A stretch of DNA of 64,000 nucleotides. It comes from Pseudorhodoferax soli (GTDB lineage Bacteria > Pseudomonadota > Gammaproteobacteria > Burkholderiales > Burkholderiaceae_C). Numbering within the stretch: the first letter of the stretch is position 1; each line of letters begins with the position of its first letter. The DNA is taken from positions 186,001 to 250,000 of the forward strand of contig NZ_QPJK01000006.1 of NCBI RefSeq assembly GCF_003337555.1, read 5' to 3'. Shown here piece by piece: positions 42,321-47,877 of the stretch. The notes under the pieces were generated by a model. It was not told where the DNA came from. It saw only the letters and a list, made by a program, of their open reading frames with translations, and made no database searches. A program made the translations under genes and the position numbers.

Positions 42321-43088
42321 TCAGGGGCGGACCTCCGTGGGGCGCCGGCGCGCATGTGCCAGCCACACGATGTCGACGGCGAACGACCAGGCCAGCAGCG
42401 CCAGACTGGCGGCAGCGCTGGCGCTGGACCAGGCTGGCGGAACGACCGGCCCCAGGGACACGATCAGCGCCACGATCTGCACCACGCAGACCGTCTTGCG
42501 CCGCCAGCTCGGTGGCAGCGGCGCGTCCAGCCAGGGCCACAGGCGCGCAGCCAGCACGAAGGCATAGCGCATGCCGCCCGCGGCCAGCACCCAGGCACCG
42601 GCCTTGCCGAACTCCAGCACGAGCGCGCTGAGCACGAGGATCAGCAGCGCGTCGGTCTCCATGTCGAAGCGGGCACCGAAGGCGCTGGCCTGCCCGCGGG
42701 CGCGCGCCAAGGGGCCGTCGACGGCGTCGAGCACGGCCGTCAGCGTCGCCAGCACCACCGCCGCCCAGGCCAGCGGGGGGCGGGCTGCCACCGGCTCGCC
42801 CACCGCCGCGGCCAGCAGGGCGGCCAGCGCCAGCCGCGCCAGCGTGATGGCATTGGCCATGCCGAAGCGCCGGTGCGGCGCGTGGTCTGCCAGGCCCTGC
42901 CAGACGCAGGCCGCGCCCAGGCCGAACAGCACCAGTGCCTTGGCGAGGTACCAGCCGCCGAAACCGGCCAGCAGGCGCGCGGCCAGTGCTGCGGCCAGCA
43001 GCGCCAGCATGGCGCAGCCCAGCGCGAGCGCTGTGTCGCGCTGCAGGGCGGCACGGTCGGGGGCGGCAAGGGCATGGGCGTGGGGCAC
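42321..43088 (-). CDS. CDP-alcohol phosphatidyltransferase-family protein
   Basis: This protein of about 255 residues has six predicted helices. The family active-site signature is intact as DAVDGPLARARG followed by FGARFDMETD, giving the D-x2-DG-x2-AR-x8-G-x3-D-x3-D pattern. It should transfer a substituted phosphate from a CDP-linked donor to an alcohol. The GTG start at 43088 has GAGGAG upstream. It is divergent from the dehydrogenase gene with only 30 bp between starts, which ties it to the adjacent pterin-like cluster. The acceptor is unknown. Confidence 0.85.
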   Translation of the reverse strand: MPHAHALAAPDRAALQRDTALALGCAMLALLAAALAARLLAGFGGWYLAKALVLFGLGAACVWQGLADHAPHRRFGMANAITLARLALAALLAAAVGEPVAARPPLAWAAVVLATLTAVLDAVDGPLARARGQASAFGARFDMETDALLILVLSALVLEFGKAGAWVLAAGGMRYAFVLAARLWPWLDAPLPPSWRRKTVCVVQIVALIVSLGPVVPPAWSSASAAASLALLAWSFAVDIVWLAHARRRPTEVRP

Positions 43089-43118
43089 GGAACTCCTCGA
43101 TAAGATGCCCGACCAAGC

Positions 43119-44120
43119 ATGCCAGCAACGCATTCACCAAAGGTGTCCAAGGGTTACAGCGCCTGCTGGACGGAAGCGCCCGGTCGCGCCGCGCTGCGCA
43201 GCGGCACGCTGCCTGCGCTGCCCGACGGCAGCCTGCAGGTGCGCGCGCTGCACAGCGCCGTGAGCCGCGGCACCGAGCTGCTGGTGTTCCGCGGCGAGGT
43301 GCCCGAGAGCGAACACCAGCGCATGCGCGCGCCGTTCCAGGAGGGCGATTTCCCCGGCCCCGTGAAGTACGGCTATGCCAGCGTCGGCGTGGTCGAGGAA
43401 GGCCCCGTCGAGTGGCTGGGCCGCCAGGTGTTCTGCCTGCACCCGCACCAGACGCGCTACCAGGTGCCGGTCACGGCGGTGCAGGCACTGCCCGAGGGCC
43501 TGCCGCCCGCCCGCGCGGTGCTGGCCGCCAACATGGAGACCGCCGTCAACGCGCTGTGGGATGCCGCGCCGCGCCTGGGCGATCGCATCGCCGTGGTCGG
43601 CGGCGGCGTGGTGGGCCTGCTGGTGGCCTGGCTGGCCGCGCGCATGCCGGGCTGCGCGGTCGAGCTCGTCGATGTGCAGCCCGAACGCGCGGCCGTGGCG
43701 GCGCGGCTGGGCCTGGCCTTCGCGCTGCCGGCGGCCGCGCGGCCTGCAGCCGATCTGGTGGTCCACGCCAGCGGCCAGCCGCAGGGCCTGGTCACGGCGC
43801 TGGGCCTGGCCGGCTTCGAGGCCCAGGTGCTGGAGCTGAGCTGGTACGGCCGGCGTGCCGTGGCATTGCCGCTCGGCGAGGCCTTCCATGCGCAGCGCCT
43901 GAGCCTGCGCAGCTCCCAGGTCGGCCACATCGCCACGGCGCAGCGCAGCCGCTGGAGCCACGGCCGGCGCATGGCGCTGGCGCTGGACCTGCTGCGCGAC
44001 CCCGTGCTCGATGCGCTCGTCACCGACCATGCGCCGTTCGACACCCTGCCCACCGTGCTGCAGCGCCTCTCGGACGGCGCGGCGCAGACCCTTTGCCAAC
44101 GCATCGACTATCCACCATGA
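43119..44120 (+). CDS. Zinc-type alcohol dehydrogenase-like (MDR) oxidoreductase
   Basis: This 333-residue medium-chain dehydrogenase-like protein has an N-terminal GroES-like part ([30 protein letters not shown]) and a Rossmann part with [15 protein letters not shown]. The classical structural-zinc Cys cluster is absent, so it is a divergent subclass. It could reduce or oxidise the side chain of the pathway intermediate. The ATG at 43119 gives the longest form; a GTG at 43143 is an alternative start that widens the tiny divergent promoter gap. The stop overlaps the DUF938 start (ATGA). Confidence 0.8.
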
Positions 44121-46224: not shown

Positions 46225-47045
46225 GCGGCTTCAGCCGCGGCTGGCTGGCCTTGCGCGAGCCCTTCGATCGGGCCGCACGCGCGGCCGGCGATGCCGCCCT
46301 GGCCGCCCTGGCCCGGCACGGCCCGCCGGGCACGCTGGAGGTGCTGGACCTGGGCTGCGGCACCGCCAGCAGCCTGCGTGCGCTGGCGCCGCGGCTCGGC
46401 GGTGCGCAGCGCTGGTGCCTGGTCGACCACGACCAGGACCTGCTCGCCACCGTGCCGCGCACCATGCAGGCCTGGGCTGAAGGCCATGGGCTGCAGATCG
46501 AATGGACGTGCCGCCGGGCCGACCTCGCCACGGGCCTGGCGGCCCTGCCGTTTCCGCAGGCCGGCCTGGTCACGGCCTCCGCGCTGCTCGACCTGGTGTC
46601 CGAGGCCTGGCTGGCCGAGCTGGTGGCGCGCAGCCGCGCGGCGCAAGCTGCCGTGTGCTGGTCGCTCAGCGTCGATGGGCGGCTGGACTTCACGCCGGCC
46701 GATCCGGCCGATGCGAAGGTGCTGGCGCTGTTCGCTGCGCACCAGCGGCGCGACAAGGGCTTCGGCCCGGCACTCGGCGAGACGGCACCGGCGCGTGCCG
46801 ACGCGCTGCTGCGTGCAGCCGGCTACCGCACGGTGCTGACGCAGAGCGACTGGCGCATCGCCGGTGCCCGCGGCGCGGACGACCAGGCCATGCTGCAGGC
46901 GCTGGTCGAGGGCATGGCCCTGGCCGCGCAGGAGCAGGGGCCGGCGCAGGCCGCTGCGGTGGAGGCCTGGCGCGCACGCCGCCTCGCAGGCCTGGCCGGC
47001 ACGCAGCTGTGCGTGGGCCACACCGACGTGCTGGGCACGCTGTAA
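46221..47045 (+). CDS. SAM-dependent class I methyltransferase
   Basis: This 274-residue protein has motif I as VLDLGCGTASSLRAL, an acidic strand end CLVDHDQDLL, and LVTASALLDLVSEAWL as motif IV. It resembles methyltransferases acting on small molecules; no subfamily is assignable. It is the last plus-strand gene of the cluster, 10 bp from the convergent RibD-type gene. With the DUF938 protein it gives the cluster two methyltransferases. Confidence 0.82.
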   Translation: MSGFSRGWLALREPFDRAARAAGDAALAALARHGPPGTLEVLDLGCGTASSLRALAPRLGGAQRWCLVDHDQDLLATVPRTMQAWAEGHGLQIEWTCRRADLATGLAALPFPQAGLVTASALLDLVSEAWLAELVARSRAAQAAVCWSLSVDGRLDFTPADPADAKVLALFAAHQRRDKGFGPALGETAPARADALLRAAGYRTVLTQSDWRIAGARGADDQAMLQALVEGMALAAQEQGPAQAAAVEAWRARRLAGLAGTQLCVGHTDVLGTL

Positions 47046-47055
47046 CGGGCGGCGG

Positions 47056-47877
47056 TTAGCCGCGCAGGTCCATGTCCCACAGCACATCGCCGCCCAGGGC
47101 GAAGGTGCGCGTGGGTGGCCGCAGCGCCTGGGCCATCGCGTCGGCGCGGCGCACCTGCAGGCCGGGCCGGCCCGCGCCGATCACCACGGGCGCGACGATC
47201 AGGTGCAGCCGGTCCAGGCAGCCCTGCTGCGCGAACTGCGACACCGTGACGCCGCCGCCCTCGACGAACAGCGTGCGCAGGCCCCGCGCGGCCAGTGCCG
47301 CCCGCAACGCCGGCAGGGGCAGCTGGCCGTCCGCGCCGGGCGCCAGGGCGATGACCTGGTCGGCACCGAGCCGGGCCTCGGCCTGTGCGCGGCACGCGGT
47401 GTCGCAGACCAGCAGCGTGGGCGCCGCGCCGTCGCGGAACACGCGGGCATCGCCCCGCACGCGCAGCCGCGGATCGAGCACCACGCGCACGGGGTTGGGG
47501 CCGGCCACATGGCGCGTGGTCAGCTGCGGGTTGTCCAGGCTCGCGGTGCTCGCGCCCACGATCACGGCGTCGCAGAGCGCGCGCAGGCGGTGCAGGTGCG
47601 TGAGGCCTTCGGGGCCGTTGACGTAGAAGGCGTCGCCGCAGTGCGTGGCGATGCAGCCGTCCAGGCTCTGGCCCAGTTGCGCGATGGTCCAGTCGGCGCT
47701 GGCGCCCTGGCGGTCCAGCAAGGGCTTGAGCAGCGCGAACAGCTGCTCGGCCTCGGCGTCCCAGCCCGGCCGCAGGGCGTAGCCGCCGGCCTCGGACCAG
47801 CGCAAGGGCGTGCCATCGGCCTGCGGCGGCCGGCCTTCGCGCCGGCGCTGCGCGAGGGACAGGCACAGGGGCCACAA
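47056..47877 (-). CDS. RibD C-terminal-type (DHFR-fold) reductase
   Basis: This protein of about 273 residues has the RibD reductase domain. TIAQLGQSLDGCIAT begins the fold, AVIVGASTASLDNPQLTTR is the NADPH/substrate loop, and LFVEGGGVTVSQF is a late motif. It lacks the RibD deaminase domain, so it is a stand-alone reductase for a pyrimidine- or pterin-like substrate. The first recognised start is TTG at 47877. The frame stays open upstream to a CTG at 47916 that has GGGAG 6 nt before it, and the true start may be there. It is convergent with the cluster, which suggests a separate promoter. Confidence 0.8.
   Translation of the reverse strand: MWPLCLSLAQRRREGRPPQADGTPLRWSEAGGYALRPGWDAEAEQLFALLKPLLDRQGASADWTIAQLGQSLDGCIATHCGDAFYVNGPEGLTHLHRLRALCDAVIVGASTASLDNPQLTTRHVAGPNPVRVVLDPRLRVRGDARVFRDGAAPTLLVCDTACRAQAEARLGADQVIALAPGADGQLPLPALRAALAARGLRTLFVEGGGVTVSQFAQQGCLDRLHLIVAPVVIGAGRPGLQVRRADAMAQALRPPTRTFALGGDVLWDMDLRG

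Follow-up and report, generated by a model that had tools for sequence, protein, structure and literature searches.

The closest solved relative of the protein considered here is SCO6650 of Streptomyces coelicolor, a PTPS-fold (T-fold) protein of known structure (3D7J), which reportedly lacks zinc, the catalytic triad and PTPS activity and keeps residues for a pterin-like ligand. Related chemistry is known elsewhere: in archaea the early steps towards riboflavin and F420 are carried out by a GTP cyclohydrolase, the deformylase ArfB, a member of the creatininase family, and the reductase ArfC, and cyanobacteria make pterin glycosides with a biopterin glucosyltransferase. The passages of PMC5041015 considered here treat PTPS-I to -IV of COG0720 and do not describe a subfamily of the SCO6650 kind. 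Here we analyse a gene cluster around such a T-fold protein in Pseudorhodoferax soli. The window, that is the whole stretch of 64,000 nucleotides analysed (G000:C6:186001-250000 of the 8.16 Mb genome G000), contains at 42321-47877 five plus-strand genes, a divergent CDP-alcohol phosphotransferase (PT) gene and a convergent gene for a RibD_C reductase. The core of this gene set is conserved far outside the genus, and we tentatively regard the window as carrying a trimmed copy of a widespread, patchy biosynthetic cluster, termed SCO6650-type in the following.

The five plus-strand genes code for a BchC-like dehydrogenase, a DUF938 methyltransferase-like protein, the T-fold protein, a GT4 glycosyltransferase and a class I methyltransferase (MT2). 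They are closely packed: the genes for the dehydrogenase and the DUF938 protein share an ATGA overlap, a gap of 3 nt follows before the T-fold gene, which runs into the GT4 gene by TGATG, and the GT4 and MT2 genes again overlap by ATGA. Only 10 nt separate MT2 from the convergent reductase gene. An earlier note on this DNA, made from the letters alone, had described the same arrangement, and its coordinates and spacing were confirmed. A scan of 42000-48300 for promoters and terminators yielded a lone promoter-like site (42274-42247), not usefully placed for these genes, and zero terminators.

To assess the conservation of the neighbourhood, 398 evenly drawn Pseudomonadota genomes (the even draw) were searched with a single PTPS query (E <= 1e-20), a search that misses more distant relatives. 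The subfamily was found in 27 genomes (about 1 in 15), one of them the window's own. The remaining 26 loci, of which L156 and L178 are short of flanking sequence as contigs start or end nearby, were scanned with profiles from the cluster genes, counting matches up to 9 kb from the PTPS gene. The computed gene content gives a clear core, consisting of the dehydrogenase (26 loci), the T-fold protein (26), GT4 (25), MT2 (24) and RibD_C (22). Less frequent are PT (12), a flippase-like LPG-synthase-TM protein (LPG-TM; 11), GTP cyclohydrolase II (GTPCH II; 11) and an FkbM methyltransferase (8), followed by cytochrome b561 (7), creatininase (6), YceI (4) and an LtaS/MdoB/MCR-like membrane protein (SULF; 3). 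The surroundings of other PTPS copies served as controls: 17 of the 26 genomes have a second match, and from each of these one such locus was taken; a PTPS-like copy with internal stops in genome G257 was excluded. The dehydrogenase, GT4, MT2, RibD_C and PT were found in none of the 17, one of which showed a weak GCH2 match and four a weak match to the PTPS profile. The same core in 26 even-draw genomes against 0 of 17 controls means that the cluster is not a chance association.

The expectation of the earlier note that all seven genes stay together in other genomes thus holds for the five core genes and, in 12 of 26 loci, for PT, and the glycosyltransferase and the RibD-type reductase that it had placed in the pathway both belong to the core. 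It does not hold for DUF938, so that one of the two methyltransferases of that proposal is kept (MT2) and the other drops out. DUF938 occurs in the cluster in five of six genomes of the genus (the window and four others, not G001); of the 121 related loci L015-L020 alone carry it, and they represent these four further genomes. Being confined to the genus, it does not belong to the conserved gene set and is a genus-specific insertion.

A similar picture was obtained from a set of 84 related loci, in which three genomes are counted twice (L014/L021, L015/L020, L016/L017): GT4 was present in 84, the dehydrogenase in 82, MT2 in 80, RibD_C in 67 and PT in 55. In this set the core spans Betaproteobacteria, Gammaproteobacteria, Alphaproteobacteria, Gemmatimonadota and Acidobacteriota. 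The nearest relatives of the window's T-fold protein, among the best 80 of 452 that were taken, come from Pseudorhodoferax and Variovorax and are up to 99% identical. Among 20 plasmid records, of which 13 were fetched, plasmid-borne clusters were found in Streptomyces, Microbacterium, Rhizobiaceae, Rhodobacterales, Methylosinus and Thiodictyon. Within the window's family the T-fold protein is present in 16 of 299 genomes; in a first sample of the family it was detected in each of the 6 genomes of the genus, and the 30 other members gave no strong and four weak matches. This patchy distribution suggests transfer or repeated loss.

The fullest loci comprise SULF, YceI, PT, the dehydrogenase, the T-fold protein, GT4, MT2, LPG-TM, RibD_C, GTPCH II, creatininase and FkbM; their order varies, the list is pooled over loci, and no single locus necessarily holds all of these genes. 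The annotated locus of Streptomyces fungicidicus runs from a CDP-alcohol transferase gene through those for the dehydrogenase, PTPS, GT4, methyltransferase and creatininase to ribA. The Streptomyces locus L179 carries the complete core of dehydrogenase, GT4, methyltransferase and RibD_C, and no RibD_C was detected in L136. Neither the whole gene set nor its product was found described in the literature, where the search covered open-licence papers and is weak evidence of absence. The remark of the earlier note that it knew of no described pathway with this set can be upheld to this extent for the full set, although the PTPS homologue SCO6650 has a structure.

The T-fold protein itself departs from PTPS exactly where catalysis takes place. 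3D7J is its best solved relative (profile E 2e-56), and the canonical PTPS 2g64 matches with only 3e-6. In an alignment of 121 sequences including duplicates (116 distinct), the computed loss of catalytic residues is nearly uniform. The position of the catalytic Cys is Ala24 in 121/121; of the zinc-binding His residues H14 and H28 are kept and the third is Ala30 in 121/121; position 67, the catalytic Asp, is Asn in 109 and Asp in 2 sequences; and the catalytic His at position 68 is found in none. The canonical residues were placed by means of a human PTPS sequence, which the alignment shifts near the catalytic Cys, and the correspondence of this residue was therefore taken from the HMMER alignment with 3D7J and not from the 121-sequence alignment. 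According to the profile alignment 3D7J has the same residues as the window protein at the altered active site. NCBIfam scores are below the cut-offs for both QueD (48.6 of 89.25 bits) and 6PTHBS (36.7 of 125.5 bits). Two other residues, the ring-anchoring Glu (E120) and Thr84, are kept in 121/121.

Since this active site is not that of PTPS or QueD, the claim of the earlier note that the PTPS-like protein makes a reduced pterin does not follow. The retained Glu favours a 2-amino-4-oxo ring as the ligand. Homologues are often annotated as 6-carboxytetrahydropterin synthase in database records, a label for a function that is beyond this active site, at least by the known mechanism; the SCO6650 subfamily should not be used to infer that a genome makes queuosine or biopterin.

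We considered two alternatives in which the protein would nevertheless act as a conventional member of its family. First, it could serve as the QueD with which this genus makes queuosine, its neighbours being coincidental. It is indeed the sole PTPS found in the window's genome, which has QueC, as it is in 9 of the 26 even-draw genomes, and many of its homologues bear the annotation just mentioned. QueC, however, is situated on another contig with no queD-like gene adjoining, 17 of the 26 even-draw genomes carry another PTPS copy elsewhere, and the loss of the catalytic residues and the conserved neighbours, none of which surround the control copies, are left without explanation, which makes this alternative very improbable. 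Second, dihydroneopterin triphosphate from GTP cyclohydrolase I (GTPCH I) could be converted by the PTPS into a 6-substituted tetrahydropterin, which would then be reduced, methylated and glycosylated; this corresponds to the view of the earlier note and resembles cyanobacterial biopterin glucoside. The adjacent genes for a PTPS fold, a dehydrogenase and a GT4 enzyme would suit such a tetrahydropterin glycoside, and GTPCH I is encoded in the genome (on C7). The same residue losses argue against it, as do three features of the cluster: the clustered cyclohydrolase is of type II, relatives of the genome's own GTPCH I are encoded in none of the 121 related loci, and the RibD-type reductase would have no obvious role. 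We consider a tetrahydropterin glycoside improbable.

Clusters that include a GTP-consuming enzyme have the riboflavin-type GTPCH II. The zinc motif is kept in 33/33 cluster copies, and the position of Tyr105 of the E. coli enzyme is Tyr in 31 and Met in two copies, both from Streptomyces. The GTPCH II homologue SCO6655, which presumably lies near SCO6650, is said to carry a Tyr-to-Met change and to release a formylated intermediate as a result. Both Streptomyces loci of the Met type also contain a creatininase; its best NCBIfam match is MftE (141 bits) and its match to ArfB is weak (E 3e-9, 37 bits, cut-off 180). The presence of GTPCH II and creatininase in the fuller loci makes an entry via the GTPCH II branch likelier than one via dihydroneopterin triphosphate.

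The placement of the reductase depends on the comparison. A profile of this family, run against the PDB, scores highest with 6p8c (141.5 bits), labelled 2,5-diamino-6-ribosylamino-4(3H)-pyrimidinone 5'-phosphate reductase, then with 2azn (127.5), labelled putative uracil reductase, which we take to be an archaeal reductase, and with RibD 2b3z (112.1), whereas NCBIfam places the window protein slightly nearer to bacterial RibD (see below). The window protein has a RibD_C domain and no deaminase domain. Together, the missing deaminase and the Glu of the T-fold protein suggest that the 2-amino-4-oxo ring would be kept and that the product would be pterin-like.

A flavin- or lumazine-like product has to be weighed against this. 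Here a ribitylaminopyrimidine would be diverted, and the T-fold protein, acting as carrier or cyclase, would help to make a natural product of the ribityl-pyrimidine type. GTPCH II, RibD_C and creatininase do resemble the early riboflavin set, and the reductase scores bacterial RibD about as well as the archaeal type. On the other hand, the reductase lacks the deaminase domain, relatives of lumazine synthase and riboflavin synthase (with the genome's own proteins as queries) are found in none of the 121 related loci, and the ring-anchoring Glu favours a 2-amino-4-oxo ring. Such a product therefore appears rather unlikely.

The reading that we prefer, if still with some reserve, is that the SCO6650-type cluster makes a pterin- or pyrimidine-type small molecule by the following route, for which we infer each substrate, the order of the reactions and the membrane link. 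GTP would be opened by GTPCH II, of which many genomes have a cluster copy; without one nearby, the organism of the window must borrow this enzyme. In Streptomyces the cluster creatininase-family hydrolase might then remove a formyl group. Like ArfC in archaea, the stand-alone RibD_C protein would act on 2,5-diamino-pyrimidinone phosphate before any deamination and reduce its ribosyl side chain. The T-fold protein would bind the 2-amino-4-oxo ring via Glu120 and, devoid of the zinc, Cys and His machinery, would act together with the BchC-like dehydrogenase in condensation, cyclisation or substrate holding. The product would be methylated and glycosylated and, in lineages with PT, might be joined to a lipid via a polyol phosphate and moved outward by the flippase-like and LtaS-like proteins.

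Several observations weigh against this route. No compound is known for the cluster, and the family and fold matches of MT2 and GT4 point to no substrate. GTPCH II and creatininase are each missing in the majority of even-draw loci, the window has neither, and the only PF00925 matches in the genome are a RibBX-like domain without zinc cysteines and a URC1-like homologue. Creatininase is also present in 19 of the 31 loci with a Tyr-type GTPCH II (21 of 33 in all). For the window reductase NCBIfam gives 102.5 bits with bacterial RibD against 95.5 with the archaeal reductase, both below cut-off, and in the PDB comparison 2azn is labelled a uracil reductase and two structures labelled as diaminopyrimidine reductases, 4ha7 and 9l1f, score far lower. 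On the membrane side, 14 of the 26 even-draw loci lack PT, its association with LPG-TM is not significant once kinship is considered (see below), and the window has PT and no local flippase-like gene.

The creatininase was also considered as a general deformylase. This is not supported, as it accompanies 19 of 31 Tyr-type GTPCH II copies; with MftE as its best match, formyl removal is not its general role. Likewise, a dedicated cluster GTPCH II elsewhere in the genome was looked for and rejected, both PF00925 matches being the proteins named above. They are encoded at G000:C2 (L101:7131-8267) and G000:C5 (L102:7201-8343); the RibA domain lacking the zinc cysteines belongs to the RibBA of the riboflavin operon, and RibBX-like is the name that we presume to apply to such a RibBA. 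In five of six genomes of the genus no third, canonical-scoring GTPCH II was found beyond the RibBX-like and URC1-like homologues. A creatininase encoded at a distance, on G000:C2, scores 287, within the range of the cluster members (minimum 190, median 396), and could be a relocated cluster member.

As stated above, PT and a flippase-like protein are frequent in these loci, which makes a membrane link plausible. Clusters accompanied by PT are known from Betaproteobacteria, Gammaproteobacteria, Rhizobium, Acidobacteriota, Gemmatimonadota and Actinomycetota. The window copy has the full CDP-AP motif D..DG..AR.{8}G...D...D, which was computed to be intact in 78 of 79 PT loci when Asp or Glu is allowed at the third acidic position. 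In the even draw LPG-TM was found in 11 of the 12 loci with PT and in none of the 14 others (Fisher 1.6e-6). Kinship between loci was taken into account on a tree of 57 chosen loci (26 even-draw, 11 plasmid and 20 others), on which PT changes 9 times; for PT and LPG-TM 3.8 independent pairs then agree against 0.4 that do not, with a median p of 0.25, which is not significant. A strict functional pair of PT and LPG-TM was rejected for this reason, in spite of the Fisher value.

The association of PT with the core can thus be read in two ways. The core pathway could be real and PT, YceI and the LtaS-like protein could be separate envelope genes, so that no lipid link exists. PT in only 12 and SULF in only 3 of 26 even-draw loci, and the kinship-aware result, argue for such a separation. 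Yet PT recurs beside the cluster in all the groups listed above, and LPG-TM accompanies the even-draw clusters only where PT is present. We regard separate envelope genes as somewhat unlikely, and a lipid-linked product in the PT-bearing lineages as plausible, from gene content. A lipid-linked form cannot hold for the 14 of 26 even-draw clusters that have no PT nearby, and the membrane or lipid link suggested by the earlier note should be limited accordingly. In its most explicit form, the proposal would be a pathway to a 'pterinolipid', in which a GTP-opened diaminopyrimidine gives rise to a ribityl-bearing, methylated and glycosylated pterin-like molecule; in lineages with the lipid module PT would attach it via its polyol phosphate to phosphatidyl lipid, and flippase-like and LtaS-like proteins would flip it and hand it on within the envelope. 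We think this doubtful. If true, the pterinolipid would be a redox-active or light-absorbing membrane head group. We know of no described system with a pterin-type membrane head group of this kind.

The window's cluster is larger than the 42321-47877 delimited by the earlier note: the genes within these bounds are real, and the cluster probably extends upstream to the YceI gene and the LtaS-like gene (Table 1). In the profile hidden Markov model scan, which covered 78 of 80 genome-contig loci (L064 and L091, shorter than 5 kb, were left out), SULF was near the cluster in 40 loci, mostly from Variovorax kin, and YceI in 43. The AlphaFold model of SULF (pLDDT 87.8) has LtaS, LtaP, 3lxq and MCR-1 as top PDB matches, with a best E of about 1e-7 and TM 0.33-0.55, and its homologues in L028 and in Rhizobium L138 show weak Pfam Sulfatase matches. 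In an alignment of 25 copies E230, S278, D466 and H467 never vary; by analogy with LtaS we assume that these residues bind metal and provide the nucleophile. SULF, with its fold resembling the alkaline-phosphatase superfamily, is probably a head-group transferase of the phosphoglycerol or phosphoethanolamine type. YceI is presumably polyisoprenoid-binding-like.

Table 1. Genes of the SCO6650-type cluster and adjoining genes in the window
Feature	Positions	Strand	Basis
LtaS/MdoB/MCR-like membrane protein (SULF), optional module	37767-39458	-	AlphaFold fold matches, conserved residues; no Pfam match
YceI family periplasmic protein, optional neighbour	39455-40096	-	Pfam YceI 3e-36
Open reading frame between YceI and PT, 705 aa (672 aa from a later start)	40116-42233	-	no Pfam match
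CDP-alcohol phosphotransferase (PT)	42321 to 43088 or 43133 (alternative starts)	-	Pfam CDP-OH_P_transf 1e-16
BchC-like medium-chain dehydrogenase (ADH), at the head of the operon	43119 or 43143 to 44120	+	NCBIfam BchC 2e-7
DUF938 methyltransferase-like protein	44117-44758	+	Pfam DUF938 6e-67
PTPS-fold (T-fold) protein, SCO6650 subfamily	44762-45169	+	Pfam PTPS 8e-27; 3D7J E 2e-56
GT4 glycosyltransferase	45169-46224	+	Pfam Glyco_trans_1_4 5e-30
Class I S-adenosylmethionine-dependent methyltransferase MT2, core member	46221-47045	+	Pfam Methyltransf_25 2e-6
Stand-alone RibD_C-type pyrimidine reductase	47056-47877	-	Pfam RibD_C 8e-38, no other domain
MgtC-DUF4010 membrane protein	48069-49391	+	

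Two of the core proteins are only loosely placed by their families. The dehydrogenase has Pfam Rossmann and ADH_zinc_N matches below threshold, and its NCBIfam match to BchC reaches 30 bits against a cut-off of 291. MT2 is modelled by AlphaFold with a pLDDT of 94.6 and has a class I fold (best TM about 0.6); the fold search with this model returned generic class I methyltransferases only. Relatives of LPG-TM, GTPCH II, creatininase and FkbM were sought with phmmer among the called genes of the window and none was found. A cluster flippase elsewhere in the genome was rejected as well: of four LPG-TM homologues two score 138 and 131 and two are below threshold, and cluster members score at least 180.

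SULF and YceI are split from PT by an open reading frame (Table 1) without any relative among the 121 related loci; from a motif we take its product to resemble a DUF4157-type protein. The MgtC-DUF4010 gene lies directly downstream of the cluster, and it was found in 5 of the 121 related loci, all of the window's genus. On the Streptomyces plasmids L180 and L181 a PTPS gene of this subfamily stands alone, with no cluster around it and with MEKHLA, cupin and MBL-fold genes in the vicinity; the T-fold protein may be put to a second use there. Two Rhodobacterales plasmid loci have ribokinase-like kinases by the cluster (L139:6834-7754; L184:5171-5974 and 10997-11887), L184 additionally an inositol-monophosphatase-like gene; these are possible phosphate-handling steps. 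In a Halomonas locus a TenA/THI-4-family gene (L085:4507-5175) is situated upstream of YceI.

The cluster can be compared with five kinds of known systems, of which the membrane-side enzymes LtaS, MdoB and EptA-MCR are matched by the optional module. They are the first structures found with the SULF model, and the presumed metal and nucleophile positions are invariant, but SULF has Ser and not Thr at the presumed nucleophile and the TM values are low as given above. In cyanobacterial pterin glycoside synthesis, as in the cluster, a GT4-type glycosyltransferase stands beside a PTPS-fold gene; in contrast to it, the cluster has no canonical PTPS, and GTPCH II rather than GTPCH I is clustered. 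With QueD and PTPS-I, -II and -III of COG0720 the window protein shares the fold family, the ring-anchoring Glu and a Thr stretch, whereas it lacks their zinc and catalytic residues.

The archaeal riboflavin and F420 route uses the same kinds of enzymes as the fuller clusters, and the best matches of the reductase profile are 6p8c and 2azn. It differs in that its GTP cyclohydrolase is of type III, whereas the clustered one is of type II; the cluster creatininase is nearer to MftE than to ArfB, and the window reductase is by NCBIfam slightly nearer to bacterial RibD. Unlike riboflavin and F420 synthesis, the cluster continues downstream with the T-fold protein, the dehydrogenase, GT4 and the methyltransferase, and the genome has a separate riboflavin operon.

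The nearest likeness is with the SCO6650-type loci of Streptomyces. SCO6650 has the same altered active-site residues as the window protein, and the gene sets of L136 and L179 are nearly that of the window's cluster; the comparison of gene sets is with these two loci. In relation to them the window is without a local GTPCH II, creatininase and flippase-like gene and adds the DUF938, YceI and LtaS-like genes. The cluster points to a possible pterin-like lipid, and with the conserved gene set the long-standing question of what SCO6650 does can be put as a pathway open to testing, for which we propose an entry through GTP, GTPCH II and a stand-alone reductase.

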